This document shows positions 4,095 through 41,105 of a stretch of DNA of 64,000 bases, piece after piece; within the stretch, counting starts at the first letter, position 1; each line of letters starts with the position of its first letter. The position numbers and the translations under genes are program-made. The stretch is from the NCBI GenBank assembly GCA_029245345.1, contig JAQWPM010000024.1, forward strand, positions 1-64,000. The letters run 5' to 3'. Origin of the DNA: Longimicrobiales bacterium (GTDB lineage Bacteria; Gemmatimonadota; Gemmatimonadetes; Longimicrobiales; Gaopeijiaceae). The notes beneath the pieces were generated by a model. The model was not told the origin of the DNA, did no database searches, and saw nothing but the letters and a program-made list of their open reading frames with translations.

Positions 4095-5420
4095 ATGACG
4101 GAGCAAAAGGACCCGATGAGCGCGGGCTTCTTTGCCAAATTCTACGCGCCTCTCATCGCGACCAGCTTTCTGCTGACCGCGACGAACCCATTGGTGGCGG
4201 CCGCCTTGGCGCGCACCTCGGACCCTGCGGCTTCTCTGGCAGGCTACGGCGTGGCGTTTGCCCTAATAGGAGTGTTGTACGCACCGCTGCTGGTTGTCCA
4301 GCAAGTCACGGCCGCGCGGCTCCTCGAAGGAGGGGATATTCGGCCGGTGAAACGCTTCGCCTACGGGATGGGCGTCATCATGTCCGGTGTGGCCGCGGCG
4401 GTGGCCTTCACGCCTCTTGGGGAGCTGATCCTAGAGGGTGTCGTCGGCGTCCGAGATGGGATTCTAGACGAAGCGATCTCGGCTATGACCGTGTTGTGGC
4501 CGGTCCCTTTCCTGACCGGGGTTCGAGCGTTGCATCAGGGGCGCCTCGTCGCTGGACATCGAACCCACCCCATCGCGACAGCGACCGGTGTTCGGACTGC
4601 GGTCCTGGCCGTTGTCGCGTTCGCTCTGACTACGACCCAGGCAGGTGCGTGGCTGGGTGGTTTAGCCTTTACCGCTGGAATCGTGTTCGAAGCGGGGATC
4701 GTCGCGTTCGCTCATGCCCCGCTTCCTGAGGTTCCAGAGAAGACAGCCACAGAGTCGAAGGGAGAAGATCGACTATTGTCGTTCTCCACGCCGCTCATGC
4801 TGAACGTGATGTTGTGGTGGAGCACACCGTTGATCATCACCTCGTTTCTCGCGCGCACGCCTGAGCCCGACTGCTCGATTGCGGCGTTCACGGTAGTCGA
4901 GGCGGTGGCGTGGTTCCTGACCGCTCCGGTAGGTCAGCTCCAACACGCTTCACTAGCATTGGTGGATTGTCAGGCCGCTCATAACAAGGTCCGGAGATAT
5001 GCAGCGGGGCTGGCCGTGGGGGTGACGGTCCTACTCGTGGTCCTCTCCGTTCCGGCGATCCGTGAGTGGATCTTATGGACGGGCTTTCGGTTGGATCCGT
5101 CTCTACTGGAGCCAGCAGGCCTCGCGTTCCCTGTGGTGGCGCTCTACCCGGTCTTGTACGGGCACCGCCAGTATCATCAAGGACTGTTCGTACGTGCCGG
5201 CTGCACGGGGCTGGTTGGTCGGGGTGCCGTGCTTCGGGTCGTCGTGGTACTCGCAGCTGGCGCGATTCTGCTCGGCCCTATGGGGCCGAACGGTGCACGT
5301 ATGGGCGTCACGATCGCGGTCGTTGGACTCTTGGCGGAAGTCGTCTTCTTGGATCTGATGAGTAGGCGGCGCGCACTGCCTCTACTCGAGAAGATCCGGC
5401 TGGGAGCCGCGGCCGACTAG
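4095..5420 (+). CDS. MOP/MATE-superfamily-like membrane transporter (ANKH-like)
   Basis: 441-residue polytopic membrane protein with about 12 hydrophobic segments in two similar halves. Each half has a similar helix pair: GVRALHQGRLVAGHRT near residue 140 and YGHRQYHQGLFVRAG near residue 355. This repeat and length fit the multidrug/oligosaccharidyl-lipid/polysaccharide exporter superfamily and resemble bacterial ANKH-like proteins. The substrate cannot be told. The start follows the preceding stop by 2 bases, so the two are probably co-transcribed. The stop overlaps the convergent lipoprotein gene by four bases. Confidence 0.65.
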   Translation: MTEQKDPMSAGFFAKFYAPLIATSFLLTATNPLVAAALARTSDPAASLAGYGVAFALIGVLYAPLLVVQQVTAARLLEGGDIRPVKRFAYGMGVIMSGVAAAVAFTPLGELILEGVVGVRDGILDEAISAMTVLWPVPFLTGVRALHQGRLVAGHRTHPIATATGVRTAVLAVVAFALTTTQAGAWLGGLAFTAGIVFEAGIVAFAHAPLPEVPEKTATESKGEDRLLSFSTPLMLNVMLWWSTPLIITSFLARTPEPDCSIAAFTVVEAVAWFLTAPVGQLQHASLALVDCQAAHNKVRRYAAGLAVGVTVLLVVLSVPAIREWILWTGFRLDPSLLEPAGLAFPVVALYPVLYGHRQYHQGLFVRAGCTGLVGRGAVLRVVVVLAAGAILLGPMGPNGARMGVTIAVVGLLAEVVFLDLMSRRRALPLLEKIRLGAAAD

Positions 5421-9934: not shown

Positions 9935-10402
9935 CTAGGCCTCTTCGGAGAGGTCAGGCCAGACCGCCTTCTTTGTCGCACGAAAGAGTAGGGATGTCTC
10001 GACGCGCGCGACCTCAGGGAGGCTGGTGATTGCATCCAGCGTGAAGTCTCTCAGATGGTCCATGTCCTGTGCCACTGCGTGTGCGAGGTAGTCGTTCCTT
10101 CCAGTCAGGTGGTAGAGCGCCACTACCTGGGGCAACCGAATGGCGGTCTCTTCAAAGTGCGCGACGGCTGCGCGTGTATGCCGCTTCAGCTGCACGGAGA
10201 CGAACGCCTGTACACCGATCCCAAAGGCTGCTGGGTCGACCGCGGCATGTGCCCCCATCAGAATTCCGCGGTCGGACAGCCTGCGCACTCTCTCGAGGCA
10301 AGCGGATTGTGAGAGCCCGACGGCTCCGGCCAATTCTTTGTTGCTGGTCCGCGCATCTTCGGCGAGGAGGGTCAGAATGTGTCTGTCGATTCGGTCTGCC
10401 AT
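9935..10402 (-). CDS. Lrp/AsnC-family transcriptional regulator
   Basis: 155 residues. An N-terminal winged helix-turn-helix (about 1-60; DRHILTLLAEDARTSNKELA and SQSACLERVRRL) precedes an alpha/beta RAM ligand-binding domain (about 65-145), where amino acids usually bind. It is transcribed divergently from a PLP trans-sulfuration enzyme over a 154-bp gap. This arrangement is usual for a regulator controlling an amino-acid catabolic gene, so control of the neighbour is likely. Confidence 0.93.
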   Translation of the reverse strand: MADRIDRHILTLLAEDARTSNKELAGAVGLSQSACLERVRRLSDRGILMGAHAAVDPAAFGIGVQAFVSVQLKRHTRAAVAHFEETAIRLPQVVALYHLTGRNDYLAHAVAQDMDHLRDFTLDAITSLPEVARVETSLLFRATKKAVWPDLSEEA

Positions 10403-10556
10403 GGAGACTGAGCCTTGTGGCCGAATAAAATGCGGACAAATACCTATCTCTAAACATAATGCACATAATTACTCCACGATAACGGAATCATATGCCATCG
10501 TCCTGGTCTTTCGATCGGGCGCTACGGATGGCATTGGCTGACATTGGAGGGTTGAT
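10403..10556. promoter_or_regulatory. Divergent promoter region between Lrp-like regulator and PLP lyase
   Basis: This 154-bp intergenic stretch is locally AT-rich around 10425-10495 and must hold both promoters. A CATAAT -10-like hexamer is at 10455-10460 (plus strand). A strong ribosome-binding site GGAGGG (10546-10551) lies 5 bases before the lyase ATG. The regulator operator probably lies in the AT-rich part; no clear Lrp palindrome was identified. Confidence 0.4.
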
Positions 10557-11861
10557 ATGAGGCTCGAGACTCGCGCGGTGAGAGCCGCGCGCGGCCAGGT
10601 TGTAACGGAGTCGCCGTTTGAGAAGGGTCAGCCGCATGTGCCTCTCATCGACCTTTCAACGACGTACACTTTCGAGAGGTCGTCGGCAGTTGCCGAATCA
10701 ATGGACGCGCTGATCGAAGGGGCGGGTGAAGCACCCAACCCGGTTTACGCGCGTTTGCGGAACCCGACCGTTGCCGGCTTCGAGAACGCCCTCGCGGATC
10801 TAGAGAGCGCAGAAGCTGCGGTGGCCTTCGCGAGTGGCATGGCCGCGATCACGGCGATGGTGCTGGCGGCCGGTTCTGAAGCCGCTCCCGACGGGTGGGC
10901 GAGAGGTAGGCACATCGTGGCGATCCGGCCCATCTACGGCGGCACGGATCATCTTCTCGCTACCGGAATACTTGGTACCGAGGTGACGTGGGCAGAGCCG
11001 GACGAGGTCGCCGAATCACTGCGGGAGGACACGTGCCTCGTCCTCCTTGAGACGCCGGCTAACCCGACGCTAGCCATGGTAGACATCGCAGGCGTCGTGT
11101 CCCAGGTGCGAGCGACAGAGAAACGTTTCGGATATCGGATCGCGGTGGCGGTGGACAACACTTTTGCCACCCCGATCCTTCAGCGCCCGCTGGAACTCGG
11201 TGCAGATCTGGTCGTGCACAGCGCCACAAAATTCCTTGGCGGTCATGGGGACGTGATGGGTGGTGTGGTAGCGAGTTCGGAAGATTGGGCGAAGCCGCTT
11301 CGGCAGACCCGCATGATCACGGGCGGCGTACTGCATCCGTTGGCAGGATATCTCCTCCACCGGGGGCTTCAGACTCTCCCGGTCCGCGTCGCTGCACAGC
11401 AGACGTCCGCCGGCATCATCGCTGCGAGACTGGCTGGGCACCCGGAAGTTACCGAGGTCCATTACCCGGGTTTGAACGGTGACCGATCTGAGGAGCGACT
11501 TCTCCGGACACAACAAAAAGGCTCAGGCTCGTTGCTCGCGTTCCGCGTTCGTGGAGGTCGAGAGGCGTCCGAGAGGGTGATGGAGTCCCTCGACTTGATC
11601 TCCCGCGCAGTGTCGCTGGGGTCTGTTGATACCCTCATCCAAGCACCGGCAGCGCTCACGCATCGGGTGGTTGACCCTGAGAGCCGCGAGGCAGCCGGGG
11701 TGCCGGAGGATCTACTGAGACTGTCTGTAGGCCTCGAAGCTGTGGACGACCTCTGGTTCGACCTGCATCAGGCACTCGAACAGGTGCGCCGTGAAAGGCC
11801 GCACTGGGAGTCGTCCATGCCACAGTCCGAATCGGGGATTTCCGAGGGAGTGGGCGCCTAG
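10557..11861 (+). CDS. Trans-sulfuration PLP enzyme (cystathionine gamma-lyase/synthase or methionine gamma-lyase type)
   Basis: 434-residue Cys/Met-metabolism PLP enzyme. It has FASGMAA (91-97, phosphate-binding), the PLP-ring Asp D200 in AVDNTFATP, the Schiff-base lysine K225 in HSATKF, and the C-terminal substrate-carboxylate Arg region LLRLSVGLE. Where methionine gamma-lyase typically has a reactive Cys (YGC), this protein has YGGT, which fits cystathionine lyase/synthase-type enzymes better. Its divergent Lrp/AsnC regulator suggests amino-acid-responsive catabolism. Exact substrate not determined. Confidence 0.88.
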   Translation: MRLETRAVRAARGQVVTESPFEKGQPHVPLIDLSTTYTFERSSAVAESMDALIEGAGEAPNPVYARLRNPTVAGFENALADLESAEAAVAFASGMAAITAMVLAAGSEAAPDGWARGRHIVAIRPIYGGTDHLLATGILGTEVTWAEPDEVAESLREDTCLVLLETPANPTLAMVDIAGVVSQVRATEKRFGYRIAVAVDNTFATPILQRPLELGADLVVHSATKFLGGHGDVMGGVVASSEDWAKPLRQTRMITGGVLHPLAGYLLHRGLQTLPVRVAAQQTSAGIIAARLAGHPEVTEVHYPGLNGDRSEERLLRTQQKGSGSLLAFRVRGGREASERVMESLDLISRAVSLGSVDTLIQAPAALTHRVVDPESREAAGVPEDLLRLSVGLEAVDDLWFDLHQALEQVRRERPHWESSMPQSESGISEGVGA

Positions 11862-30491: not shown

Positions 30492-31556
30492 CTAGGCCTC
30501 GACTCTGATCTTCCCGGGTTCACCTTCAGTAACTTCACCGATCACCGCAGTCACAGGTGCCTGTCCGTATAGGTCGGCCATGAGTGGTGCCAATATGTCA
30601 GGCTTCACACACATGAGCATGCCGCCAGACGTCTGCGCGTCGGCGAGCAGCACCCGCTTGATCTCGTCGACCTCGCCAGAGAAGGTCACGTCGGCTGCCA
30701 CGTCTTCCAGATTGCGCTTCGATCCTCCGGAAATATGACCGCCGATAGCGAGCTCTCTCGCACCGTGCATGACAGGGATGTCGCTGGATCGCAGGTTAGC
30801 CGCGGTGCCGGATGCCCTCATCATACCGCGGAGGTGCCCGAGTAGGCCGAAGCCGGTGACGTCTGTGGCCGCGAGCACGCCTCCGTTCACCATGGCCGCC
30901 GCCGCCCCGGCGTTGAGCGTCGCCATGATATCCACAGCGTTCGCGATCACATCATCCGGCGCCTCGCCTTTCTTGATCGCTGTCGCGATCACTCCGGAGC
31001 CGATGGGCTTGGTGAGGACCAGCAAGTCACCGGGCTTCGCGCCGGTGTTGGTCACCATGTGGTTCGGGTCGACTTCTCCGATCGCGACGAGCCCGTACTT
31101 CGGCTCGGCGTCATCGATCGTGTGCCCGCCCAAGGTCGGTATGCCGAGGCCGCGCGTGACATCGCTTCCGCCCCGCAGGATCTCATCAAGGATGCCCTCG
31201 GACAGCAGCGCACGAGGGAAGCCCACCAGGTTGAGCACGAACATGGGCTTCGCCCCCATGGCGTAGATGTCCGACAACGCGTTCGTGGCGGCTATGCGGC
31301 CAAAGTCGTAGGGGTCATCGACTATGGGCGTGAAGAAATCAGCCGTTACGACCAAGGCACGGTCGTCGGTTAACCGATACACAGCAGCATCGTCGCCGGT
31401 CGTATGACCGACGAGGGCGTTCGGATCTTCCACCGGCAGGACGTGACGCAGAACCTGCGCCAACTCGGACATCCCGAGCTTACATGCTCAACCGGCTCCG
31501 TGACTGAGCTGGGACAGCCGAATCTTCGGCCTCTGGTCCCTTGGCTCGTTCGCCAT
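30492..31556 (-). CDS. selD: Selenide, water dikinase containing selenocysteine
   Basis: SelD makes selenophosphate from selenide and ATP, the selenium donor for selenocysteine. The gene starts at ATG 31556, with AGGAG a few bases upstream, and reads through an in-frame TGA (codon 23, 31488-31490). The protein then begins MANEPRD and has HGAGUACK, with Sec23, Cys25 and Lys26 matching the catalytic Cys17, Cys19 and Lys20 of E. coli SelD. Later motifs TADFFTP, LSDIYAMGAKP, GGHTI and ATDVTGFGLLGH are typical. If TGA were a stop, the protein would begin at ATG 31472, without its catalytic centre. Total 354 residues. A hairpin follows the TGA. It is convergent with lon. Confidence 0.94.
31464..31490 (-). 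promoter_or_regulatory. UGA codon and putative bacterial SECIS hairpin of selD
   Basis: Reading the minus strand, TGA (31490-31488) is followed after 9 bases by CTCGG (31478-31474), loop GATGT, then CCGAG (31468-31464). Flanking AA/TT can extend the stem with a bulged G. The loop G is 15 bases after the UGA. Bacterial SECIS elements sit within the coding region just downstream of UGA and present a loop G to SelB. Folding was done by eye. Confidence 0.65.
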
Positions 31557-34184: not shown

Positions 34185-34835
34185 CTACATCCCTTCGAGC
34201 TCCGCGAGTGCTGCCAGGATGTCCTCGTTCTCCGGCCGGACCCGGTAGTTCACCTCGGTGAATTTCCAGTGCACGCGGCCCTCCTTGTCGATCACATAGG
34301 CCGTTGGATGCGGAATCGCGCGTCCTTTGCCGTCTTCGCTGTTGAAGAGCCCGTACCGATTGATGATCGTCGCGTCCGGGTCGGACAACAGCGCGAAGTC
34401 GATCATGTAGCCGTCGTTTTCTTCGGCCACCCGATCGACCATCATTTGGAGCATTTCCGGACCGTCTGAAGAAAGTGCGAGGATCTCAGTCCCTTCGCGC
34501 TGTTCCGGGGTCATGAAGTCTTGCAGCTCACCGAGCTGCTTAGCGCAGTAGGGTCACCAGTGGCCTCGGTAGAAGAGCAGCACAACGTTCTTTTCCCCGC
34601 GGAAACTCGAGAGCGTGGCGACCGGCCCGGCCAGTGTATTGGCGGAAAAGTCGGGTGCCATATCCCCGGCTTGGACCCGCTCGAGGTCCACACCGAGTAG
34701 GTCGAGCCCGTCCACGGGGCCCAACACGATTTCCTTCATCTCTTCCACCACGGCTTCGGCTGTCTCATCTGCCACCCCACATCCGCCCATCCCGACAACG
34801 CCCGCTGCGATGAGTGAGAATGCGTAACGTCGCAT
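34185..34835 (-). CDS. Selenocysteine-containing lipoprotein peroxiredoxin (AhpC/TSA family)
   Basis: 216 residues from ATG 34835 (GGAG 6 bases upstream), with an in-frame TGA at 34554-34556 read as selenocysteine 94. Signal peptide lipobox GMGGC (Cys about 19) predicts a membrane-anchored periplasmic protein. The thioredoxin fold follows: GDMAPDFSANTLAG, VVLLFYRGHW, Sec94, Pro, Tyr, Cys97, then KQLGELQDF and, after TGA, an uninterrupted domain (EILALSSDG, FALLSDPDATI, HPTAYVIDKEG). The redox site U-P-Y-C is in the position where relatives have C-P-F-C. Without readthrough, both halves would be unusable. It should reduce peroxides or disulphides at the cell surface. Confidence 0.92.
34523..34556 (-). 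promoter_or_regulatory. UGA codon and SECIS-like hairpin of the peroxiredoxin gene
   Basis: On the minus strand, TGA (34556-34554) is followed after 14 bases by GCAGCTC (34539-34533), a GGT loop (34532-34530) and GAGCTGC (34529-34523): a perfect 7-bp stem. The loop begins 22 bases after the UGA. A short stem with a G-rich (GGU) apical loop at about this distance is the hallmark of bacterial SECIS elements bound by SelB. Confidence 0.8.
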
Positions 34836-37863: not shown

Positions 37864-39993
37864 ATGATGAGCTTTAAAATGAAGCGATTGGCTCGAGGAC
37901 TCGGTGCGCTAGCCCTCGTCGCGCTCCTTGCGGCGTGTAGCGAGCGATACCCGCCACCGCCGGACGCACGGATTGATCCGGTAGTGGACGTCATCCAGGG
38001 CATCGAGTTCGTCGACAACTACAGATGGCTCGAGGATCAGGAATCGGCGGAGACCCGCTCCTGGATCGACGCTCAAAATGCCTACGCGGAGACCATCGTG
38101 GGGCAGGGGCCCGTCCGTGAGCATCTCCGCGCGATTCTGAGGGATCGCCTCGACGAGGACAACGTCGGTGGGACAAGGAAGATCGGCGACTTCGAGTACT
38201 TCACCATGAGGCGGCAGGGCGAAGAGGTTCCGGTGATCTATCGCAGGCCAGCCCCGGCGGACGACGACGAAGCCGAGGAGCCCACGGTGGATGAGGAGTA
38301 CGAGGTCTTCATGGACCCGGTGGACCTAGATCCCACGTATCGAACGTTGATCGAGATGATGGGTGCGTCACCGGATCAGACGCTGATGCTCTATTCAATC
38401 CGACAGGGCGGCGCGGACGAGTTAGAGATCCGCATCAGAAATCTCGAGACGGGTGAGGACCTTCCCGATTATCTCCCCAACGCTCTATACGGTGGTGTGC
38501 AGTTCGACGAAGAGGGCACGGGCTTCTACTACACGCACAGGTCACGCGTCGATGGGCCGCGCGTCCGCCATCACACGCTGGGTGAGGACTCGTCCGAGGA
38601 CGAGGAAATTTGGGGTGAGGGTTATGGCCCGGAGGTGTTTGCTAGTATGAATCGAGTGGGAGGGGGCCGGTATCGGCTCTATTCGGCGCAACACGGCTGG
38701 GCCCGCAGTGATCACTTTATTCAGACCGGCGATGGCGCGATACGTACCATCGTTGAAGGCGTCCCGGCACACTTTCAAGTCCGCTTTCGGGGCGGTCAGC
38801 TTTTCATCCGGACGGACCATGAAGCATCTAATTTTCGACTCGTTGTAGCCGATCCAGACAACCCGACCCCCGATGCTTGGTCCGAACTGATCCCTGAGAG
38901 CGAGGATCTTCTCGAGAGCTACCAGTTTGTGGGAGACAAGATCGTCGCGATCTACCTGCACGAAGTGGAAAACCGTGTGCGGGTCTTTGAGATGGACGGC
39001 ACGCCCGTTGGTGAGGTCTCCGTACCGGAACAGTCGACCGTCTCTGTCAGAGGCGCAGGTGACGGAAAGGCGACACTCACAGTGGTCGGATACCTGACGC
39101 CTGCCACGGAGTATGAGGTCGATCTGGAGACTTTGGAGGTCGAAATGACGGAGCCTCCGGAAGGTTCTCCAGAGGGATTCGAAGTCACTAAGCTCTGGTT
39201 CACTTCGACTGGGGGTGCACGAGCTCCGGTGTATGTGATGCATCGCGCCGGAATCGCACTCGACGGAAGCCACCCGACAATCTTGAACGGCTACGGTGGT
39301 TTCACATCGAACATCAAGCCGAGCTTCTCGACGACACGCATGGCGTGGCTGGAGATGGGTGGGGTCTACGCGGTGGCAACGCTCCGGGGCGGGACCGAAT
39401 TCGGGGAAGCGTGGCACCAAGACGGCATGCTCGAGAACAAGCAGCACGTCTTCGACGACTTCATCGCCGCCGCGGAGATGCTGATCGACGAAGGGTACAC
39501 GACCCCTGACCATCTCGGCAGCAACGGTGGCAGCAACGGTGGACTGCTCGTGGCTGCTGCGATGACGCAGCGACCGGATCTCTTCCGGGCCGTGTTATGC
39601 ACCTATCCTGATCTGGACATGGTTCGGTTCTATGCATTCCAGGAGACGAACAACATGCCGGCACTGCTCGAATACGGTGATTCTCGTATTCCCGAACACT
39701 TCGACGTGATCCGTCAGTACTCACCCTATCAGGCGGTACGGGACGGGGCCGACTATCCGGCAGTCATGTTGGCTACCGGCGACCTCGACACCCGAGTGCC
39801 ACCGCTGCAAGCCCGACGGATGACTGCGCGACTCCAAGCAGCGACCGCGTCCGGGCTTCCCGTGATCCTCTGGTACGACGCCCGCGGTGGGCATGCGGCA
39901 GGGCGTGGTCGCCCGATGACCCTACGGATCGAGGATACGGCCCGGGAGCTAACCTTTATGGCGCAGCAGCTGGGTCTTGAGGCTCCCAACTAA
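37864..39993 (+). CDS. Prolyl oligopeptidase-family serine peptidase (S9A), lipoprotein
   Basis: 709 residues. Lipobox LLAACS after a signal segment (Cys about 20) predicts outer or periplasmic membrane anchoring. An N-terminal beta-propeller (about 60-420) is followed by the alpha/beta-hydrolase domain (about 440-709). The nucleophile is in NGGSNGGLL, the Asp in GDLDTRVPP and the His in RGGHAAGRGR. S9A enzymes cut after Pro in short peptides. Four bases separate it from the BNR protein, so the two are probably co-transcribed. Confidence 0.95.
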   Translation: MMSFKMKRLARGLGALALVALLAACSERYPPPPDARIDPVVDVIQGIEFVDNYRWLEDQESAETRSWIDAQNAYAETIVGQGPVREHLRAILRDRLDEDNVGGTRKIGDFEYFTMRRQGEEVPVIYRRPAPADDDEAEEPTVDEEYEVFMDPVDLDPTYRTLIEMMGASPDQTLMLYSIRQGGADELEIRIRNLETGEDLPDYLPNALYGGVQFDEEGTGFYYTHRSRVDGPRVRHHTLGEDSSEDEEIWGEGYGPEVFASMNRVGGGRYRLYSAQHGWARSDHFIQTGDGAIRTIVEGVPAHFQVRFRGGQLFIRTDHEASNFRLVVADPDNPTPDAWSELIPESEDLLESYQFVGDKIVAIYLHEVENRVRVFEMDGTPVGEVSVPEQSTVSVRGAGDGKATLTVVGYLTPATEYEVDLETLEVEMTEPPEGSPEGFEVTKLWFTSTGGARAPVYVMHRAGIALDGSHPTILNGYGGFTSNIKPSFSTTRMAWLEMGGVYAVATLRGGTEFGEAWHQDGMLENKQHVFDDFIAAAEMLIDEGYTTPDHLGSNGGSNGGLLVAAAMTQRPDLFRAVLCTYPDLDMVRFYAFQETNNMPALLEYGDSRIPEHFDVIRQYSPYQAVRDGADYPAVMLATGDLDTRVPPLQARRMTARLQAATASGLPVILWYDARGGHAAGRGRPMTLRIEDTARELTFMAQQLGLEAPN

Positions 39994-40976
39994 CGTTTCG
40001 CGAGCAGGTCCGCCACGATCAAACTGCCGTGCTGTCGGCCGTTTTCGATGAAGACCTTGTTGGCGTTGTGACCGGCAGCAATAACCCCCGCGATATAGAG
40101 ACCGGGAGTGTTCGTCTCCATGGTCTCTAAATCGTGATGCGGTTTGCCGGTCTCGTCGTCGATCTCGACGCCGAGACCGCGAAGTGTGGAGTGGTCTGCC
40201 CGCCATCCCGTCATTGCAACGACGAAATCGTTGGAGATCTCGGTTGTGTCGCCTGAAGCATCACTACGGATCACCACTGACGTTGGCTTGATTTCCGTAA
40301 TACGACTGTGCCAGTGCACGCCGATCTCGCCCTTTTCGAGGCGATTGGTGATATCGGGCACGACCCACGGCTTCACCCCGCGATCGATCGTGTCCATGAA
40401 GTGCACAAGCGTGACGCGTGAGCCGTTCCGGTACATCTCGAGTGCCGATTCTACCGCGGAGTTTCCGGCGCCCACGACGAGCACGTCCTGGGCGTAATAT
40501 GCGTACGGTTCGTGGTAGTAGTGGTGGACCTTGTCCAACTCCTCACCGGGTACTTCGAGAAAGTTGGGGTGATGGAAACCACCGGTCGCGAACACAACCG
40601 ATTTGGCACTGAAGATCTCCTGGGTCCCGTCTCGTTTGGACGTGCGTACCGTGAAATCACCTTCGCTTCCTGAGATCTCGTCCACGTTCTGGTACTGACG
40701 GACGTCCACGTCCCAGTGTTCGACAACGCGCCGGTAGTATACGAGCGCCTCACGACGGGTCGGCTTCGACTCGGGGATGGTGAAGGGTACATCTCCCACC
40801 TCGAGCATGAACGCCGTACTAAAGAAGGTCATGTAGTACGGGTAGTTCGTGAGCGACTGGGTGATGCAGCCTCGATCGAAGAGGACACATGACACACCGG
40901 CCTTCTTTGCAGCGGCGCCTACGGCGATGCCGCAGGGGCCAGCGCCGACCACCAAAAGTTCAAGTTTATTGCTCAT
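39990..40976 (-). CDS. YpdA-like (bacillithiol disulphide reductase family) flavoprotein
   Basis: 328 residues from ATG 40976. Two dinucleotide-binding motifs are seen: VVGAGPCGIAVG (FAD, about 8-19) and VVGAGNSAVESAL (NADPH, about 165). FDRGCITQSL and YYMTFFST segments are characteristic of YpdA. In Firmicutes it reduces bacillithiol disulphide, and related proteins occur in bacillithiol-making Bacteroidetes and Gemmatimonadota-like lineages (family knowledge). Whether this organism makes bacillithiol is not shown here. Its stop overlaps the prolyl oligopeptidase stop. Confidence 0.85.
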   Translation of the reverse strand: MSNKLELLVVGAGPCGIAVGAAAKKAGVSCVLFDRGCITQSLTNYPYYMTFFSTAFMLEVGDVPFTIPESKPTRREALVYYRRVVEHWDVDVRQYQNVDEISGSEGDFTVRTSKRDGTQEIFSAKSVVFATGGFHHPNFLEVPGEELDKVHHYYHEPYAYYAQDVLVVGAGNSAVESALEMYRNGSRVTLVHFMDTIDRGVKPWVVPDITNRLEKGEIGVHWHSRITEIKPTSVVIRSDASGDTTEISNDFVVAMTGWRADHSTLRGLGVEIDDETGKPHHDLETMETNTPGLYIAGVIAAGHNANKVFIENGRQHGSLIVADLLAKR

Positions 40977-41105
40977 GCTTGAGACTCTACCTAATCGCCT
41001 GTGCGGGTTCCAGTCACCCGAGCTGGGCCGGGCGATTGCCGTGGGTTGTGCTGCCGCGCACCTTGAAAATTCACGGCGAGAGAACCATCCCGACCTCCAC
41101 GACAT

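Follow-up and report, generated by a model that had tools for sequence, protein, structure and literature searches.

A predicted envelope selenoprotein of the UxxC peroxiredoxin-like family in Gemmatimonadota

Results

The window analyzed in this study is a stretch of 64,000 nucleotides from contig JAQWPM010000024.1 of a Longimicrobiales bacterium. On its minus strand, positions 34185-34835 were found to contain a gene of 216 codons plus TAG for a peroxiredoxin-like (Prx-like) selenoprotein of the UxxC type. The gene starts with an ATG at 34835 and ends with the TAG at 34187-34185, and between them lies a single in-frame UGA, in the context FYRGHW-U-PYC, with no second stop. The product matches the AhpC-TSA profile (PF00578) with 97 bits, compared to a gathering threshold of 26. 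The UGA (34554-34556, minus) is codon 94, and each of the phylum's 97 Sec copies has selenocysteine (Sec) in this column. Its partner, Cys97 (34545-34547, minus), is the sole cysteine C-terminal to Sec, as is the case in 93 of the 97 copies. The N-terminus (34779-34835, minus) comprises a signal peptide and a lipobox (..VVGMGG-C19) with methionine at the -3 position, and the match to the PROSITE-type pattern predicts a lipid anchor. A first-pass annotation had described this locus as a 216-residue AhpC/TSA-like frame that is intact except for one TGA, with U94, a W-U-P-Y-C motif and a lipobox at Cys19. Re-reading of the frame bore out all of these points, coordinates included, and added the strand, which had been omitted.

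The genome holding this gene (3.79 Mb, 98% complete) encodes tRNA-Sec (65.1 bits), SelB (306/335 bits) and SelA (549 bits), each above its curated cut-off, as well as SelD. The machinery for selenoprotein synthesis is thus complete, and none of selA, selB and selC, whose possible absence had been raised in the first-pass annotation, is missing. The selenophosphate synthetase gene selD (30492-31556, minus; TIGR00476, 382 bits, cut-off 125) is located 2.6 kb from the Prx-like gene. It has a Sec UGA of its own at the usual site (31490-31488, minus; HGAG-U-ACK), with a 7-bp hairpin with a GAUGU loop downstream. Gene calling with translation table 11 would begin selD past this UGA, at 31472.

The proximity of selD to the Prx-like gene is also observed in six related genomes. 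Nevertheless, selD, ygfZ and the sortilin-type neighbours were rejected as functional partners, as the order selD-ygfZ-Prx does not extend beyond the closest genomes, having been lost in others; it is best put down to shared descent and provides no evidence of partnership. Another candidate UGA-containing gene in the window, at 10140-11861, was dropped because the segment ahead of its UGA is not protein-like. A gene for a YpdA-family putative bacillithiol disulfide reductase (39990-41105, minus; TIGR04018, 412 bits, above cut-off) lies near the Prx-like gene, in this genome as in three related ones, which hints at the use of bacillithiol in this lineage.

With regard to Sec insertion, the UGA is followed by a hairpin, GCAGCUC-GGU-GAGCUGC (34523-34539, minus), which spans nucleotides 15-31 past UGA94. 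Its 7-bp stem starts at nucleotide 15, and its GGU loop, at +22 to +24, opens with G. The perfect hairpin noted in the first pass was confirmed, and folding of the 48 nt downstream of the UGA gives it as the minimum-energy structure. It has the properties given for a bacterial SECIS element in the accessible part of PMC1088965, namely a hairpin just past the UGA with a G in a small apical loop. An equally good hairpin at an allowed distance was found after 10 of the 1900 TGAs on both strands of the window (0.5%) and in 1.5% of synonymous recodings of the Prx-like gene. Among the homologues, the 97 Sec genes of the phylum all have a rule-fitting hairpin, versus 2 of 13 Cys homologues, and the Cys orthologues have none.

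When the phylum copies were shuffled synonymously, about half of the draws still contained a rule-fitting hairpin, because the codons for QLxEL are near-palindromic; codon freezing and covariation were therefore examined. Across 94 orthologues the stem codons were found to be frozen (CAG 94/94, CTC 92/94, GAG 90/90, CTG 94/94), with free variation outside the stem, at the leucine codons -8, +13 and +14 and at the third base of the loop glycine codon. In a set of 50 diverse sequences the stem was paired in 91% of cells, with changes on both sides at four pairs, and its covariation score was 0.211 versus 0.101 after shuffling, a value reached by none of 500 shuffles. Sliding the stem by one to three bases destroyed the covariation, leaving the true score far above the slid controls. 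The outer pair, which lies in variable residues, changes in a compensatory manner (GC, UA, AU, CG). Scored against synonymous shuffles, global folding energy gave no distinction between Sec and Cys genes (mean z about 0); the position-specific hairpin, codon freezing and covariation do tell them apart. Rfam, which to our knowledge has no curated general model of bacterial SECIS elements, returned no match for the hairpin at gathering thresholds and is uninformative here. The frozen stem codons, the covariation and the loss of the hairpin in the Cys orthologues thus sustain the bacterial SECIS reading of the first pass, and a SECIS function of the 34539-34523 hairpin is strongly supported. Within this one protein family two SECIS registers were observed in the 3-51 nt after the UGA: the most enriched loop centre is at +19 in Sec genes of the same motif from other phyla (all-bacteria set, L088-L207) and at +23 in Gemmatimonadota.

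A homologue was found in 71 of the order's 154 genomes. An in-frame TGA is present in every copy in which the site is covered, and in all 70 order-level copies that were read its position is the same. In a sample of 395 genomes of the phylum, the UGA form is present in 85 of the 88 genomes carrying the family and a Cys orthologue in the other three, as counted by hand from the phylum search table. The other stop-free matches were fragments or true peroxiredoxins; three of these four were read (L235, L236 and L238), and each has threonine at the site. An exact search for the Cys motif FYRGxWCPxC retrieved 4 of 390 genomes. Altogether, the same UGA was found in more than 200 homologues. The three Cys genomes all belong to one genus, g71. 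The strongest match to SelB there is at about 1e-48, a level that other translation GTPases reach as well; judged from these matches, the genus has no SelB. According to the search tables, SelB is found at about 1e-82 or better in 84 of the 85 UGA genomes. The exception, G040, combines the Sec form with a SelB match that is weak, and no match was seen in three metagenome-assembled genomes (MAGs) from other phyla; incompleteness of these four assemblies is perhaps the reason.

Since the all-bacteria set was gathered with a UGA-only pattern, Sec:Cys ratios are not readable from it, and a protein-based search in Acidobacteriota, the phylum of G430, was added for Sec/Cys sampling. Seven Acidobacteriota copies (L278, L280, L281, L283 and L291-L293) have Cys instead of Sec and are scattered among Sec rows. 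Trees were built with the Sec/Cys site masked; they are unrooted and have many weak branches. The three g71 Cys orthologues group as a single clade within Sec rows and still do so with the protein-based Acidobacteriota sample as outgroup, and at least six Sec/Cys changes are needed on the tree. Two unusual copies were encountered. L087 (G014:C308), a second copy, has UPFS for UPYC, so that Sec and the hairpin are kept and the resolving Cys is replaced by Ser. L199, on a contig labelled Gammaproteobacteria (SB0675_bin_31), scores like the Gemmatimonadota copies, and its bin is probably mislabelled or mixed.

The PROSITE-type lipobox was detected in 22 of the 70 order-level copies, including the nearest relatives, which supports the earlier, pattern-based prediction of an extracytoplasmic lipoprotein at Cys19. 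By inspection, most of the other copies in the order start with what looks like a cleavable signal peptide or with a membrane anchor. Given that most copies have an export signal of some kind, export appears to be common to the family, with the lipid anchor as one of several apparent solutions, and the first-pass description of the envelope as an unusual place for such a protein was overstated. A Sec-containing lipoprotein also has a precedent in the NiFeSe hydrogenase of Desulfovibrio. As for neighbours elsewhere, a TlpA/ResA-like gene (L269:8960-9505) directly follows the Sec gene in G165, and DsbD-like and thioredoxin-like genes (L222:1464-3950 and 4569-5162) flank the Cys gene in G211. In these two genomes, one with the Sec and one with the Cys form, the neighbours are weakly suggestive of an envelope reducing relay.

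The structural model of the protein, like the profile match, corresponds to a peroxiredoxin fold (pLDDT 89), and the closest solved folds are those of AhpE, Bcp/PrxQ and Prx6. A helix begins at residue 95, so that Sec94 is found at its N-terminal end and its first turn contains Cys97. Four columns distinguish the active site from that of the true peroxiredoxins of the phylum (L235, L236 and L238), which have P, T, C and R where the Prx-like protein has R90, U94, C97 and P177. R90 and U94 are present in 97 of 97 copies and P177 in 96 of 97; R200 is conserved as well. Sec94 therefore stands at the threonine of PxxxTxxC, and a near-invariant proline at the position of the catalytic arginine, which resembles the situation in thioredoxin/TlpA proteins. 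The proline, threonine/serine and arginine of the peroxiredoxin catalytic set (PxxxTxxC/U) are not found as a set in the 97 copies, and the peroxidatic position is occupied by Cys97, three residues after Sec, and not by Sec as in TxxU proteins. The proposal of a Sec peroxiredoxin thus stands as far as Sec insertion is concerned and fails for the placement of Sec at the peroxidatic Cys. Likewise, the suggested comparison of the U94 protein with peroxiredoxins recovered the fold and the domain, but not the catalytic residues. No NCBIfam model reaches its cut-off, and the best named sequence models, thiol peroxidases, are far below theirs. BLASTP aligned WUPYC on the WCxxC of a TlpA-like protein. 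In the alignment with this TlpA/ResA-like protein, Sec94 coincides with the leading Cys of CxxC, and Pro177 with the proline that is cis in TlpA/ResA.

Discussion

This study identified a gene that combines a PF00578 domain, a UxxC motif and a bacterial SECIS hairpin, the features of the Prx-like UxxC selenoprotein family, with an in-frame UGA at a conserved redox position where some homologues have Cys. We consider it very likely that it encodes an exported Prx-like selenoprotein working through a Sec94-Cys97 pair. The assignment of UGA94 to Sec follows from the presence of the Sec machinery, the UGA in the same column throughout, the frozen and covarying stem, and the occurrence of Cys where SelB is absent. 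That ribosomes would insert Sec at UGA94 by means of SelB, tRNA-Sec and the 34539-34523 hairpin is strongly supported by these comparisons. On the basis of the alignment and the model, the nucleophile would be Sec94, located at the N-terminal end of the first active-site helix, Cys97 would resolve the selenenylsulfide, and Pro177 would be the equivalent of the cis-proline. The protein would most likely be an envelope thiol:disulfide oxidoreductase acting as a reductant of disulfides or oxidised small molecules, and it might be re-reduced by a thioredoxin-like or DsbD-type relay in the envelope, as the neighbours in G165 and G211 faintly suggest.

Standard annotation would terminate the gene at the UGA, and a true stop would leave a pseudogene or a truncated product of 93 residues. 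This is extremely improbable in view of the UGA in more than 200 homologues, the conserved protein beyond it, the complete machinery, the frozen and covarying stem, and the replacement by Cys where SelB is missing. The open frame, and nothing else that was found, would also fit decoding of the UGA as another amino acid such as Trp or Cys, through a reassigned code or readthrough. We attach next to no weight to this reading, as tRNA-Sec and SelB are present, the SelB-less relatives have Cys and not Trp, and selD in the same window has a UGA at a known Sec site. The hairpin could in principle be a by-product of the conserved peptide QLGEL rather than an RNA signal, in line with its survival in about half of the synonymous shuffles, which the near-palindromic codons explain, and with a global folding energy no lower than that of shuffles. 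However, the freezing is confined to the stem codons, the outer pair changes compensatorily in variable residues, and the Cys orthologues have lost the hairpin, which makes this explanation very improbable.

A more substantial alternative concerns the activity: a functional selenoprotein could mainly reduce peroxides, with attack by Sec94, resolution by Cys97 and electrons from an envelope thioredoxin-like protein. The peroxiredoxin fold, the peroxidase activity of the solved neighbours AhpE, Bcp/PrxQ and Prx6, and the thiol peroxidases at the top of the named models, even if far under their cut-offs, are consistent with this. In contrast, nearly all copies have other residues in place of the helpers Pro, Thr and Arg, with a near-invariant proline at the arginine position, and we regard peroxide reduction as the main activity as unlikely. 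Of the two activities, we consider the oxidoreductase reading the more probable one.

With regard to evolution, the simplest reading is that Sec was replaced by Cys in genus g71 together with the loss of SelB, the direction of change being suggested and not proven by the trees. As a rule, Cys homologues far outnumber Sec forms, and here the UxxC selenoprotein stays Sec in nearly all carriers of the phylum. In the available portion of PMC13188914, Sec/Cys changes are termed rare, with FdhA and SelD as the main documented cases. As a broader proposal, which we advance tentatively, the protein may be an envelope selenoenzyme in which a peroxiredoxin scaffold carries out thioredoxin-type chemistry (Sec-x-x-Cys plus cis-proline), with Sec near-fixed among the carriers of the phylum, ancestral and preferred, and Cys only where SelB was lost. 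The combination of SelB loss, Cys replacement and hairpin decay is a natural experiment that renders the question of why selenocysteine is kept testable with matched Sec and Cys enzymes. The family thereby offers unusually clear-cut evidence on the retention and loss of selenoprotein genes. Many such genes are prone to being split at the UGA by annotation pipelines.

The UxxC Prx-like family was described from the Sargasso Sea in 2005, has its counterpart in the GOS study as Prx-like 1 and is listed in 2026 as predicted with high confidence, according to the accessible portions of PMC1088965, PMC2398784 and PMC13188914. In the first and last of these portions, true Sec-peroxiredoxins are TxxU proteins and UxxC Prx-like proteins a separate family. 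As far as these portions and that of PMC9312934 extend, the described family resembles the present protein in its PF00578 domain, its UxxC rather than TxxU motif and its bacterial SECIS; this phylum, a lipoprotein form and a phylum-wide near-absence of Cys homologues do not appear in them. In the literature searched, no paper on the family in Gemmatimonadota was found.

Among other known systems, the Sec-peroxiredoxin PrxU shares the peroxiredoxin fold, the AhpC/TSA domain and a Sec in the active-site region. In PrxU, however, Sec is at the peroxidatic position after Thr, whereas in the Prx-like protein Sec replaces the Thr and Cys occupies the peroxidatic column, and the PrxU model scores 38 bits on it against a cut-off of 270. 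Peroxiredoxin-like proteins with FYRGxWCPYC (PRX_like2 type), found on plasmids, most of them from Proteobacteria, have the same motif and about 30% identity over the domain, but they are Cys forms, mostly lack the hairpin and cover about 67% of the query. AhpE of Mycobacterium tuberculosis, a 1-Cys peroxiredoxin, is the nearest solved fold (TM 0.88 on the target), and it has the P, T, C, R set in place of R, U, C, P. The membrane-anchored thiol:disulfide oxidoreductases TlpA/ResA correspond in CxxC to UxxC, in the cis-proline to P177 and in their envelope location, but identity is only 27% and the ResA model gives 52 bits against a cut-off of 170. Compared with these systems, three features are new here: the Sec form is nearly fixed in a phylum, it occurs as a predicted lipoprotein, and its exchange for Cys coincides with the loss of SelB.
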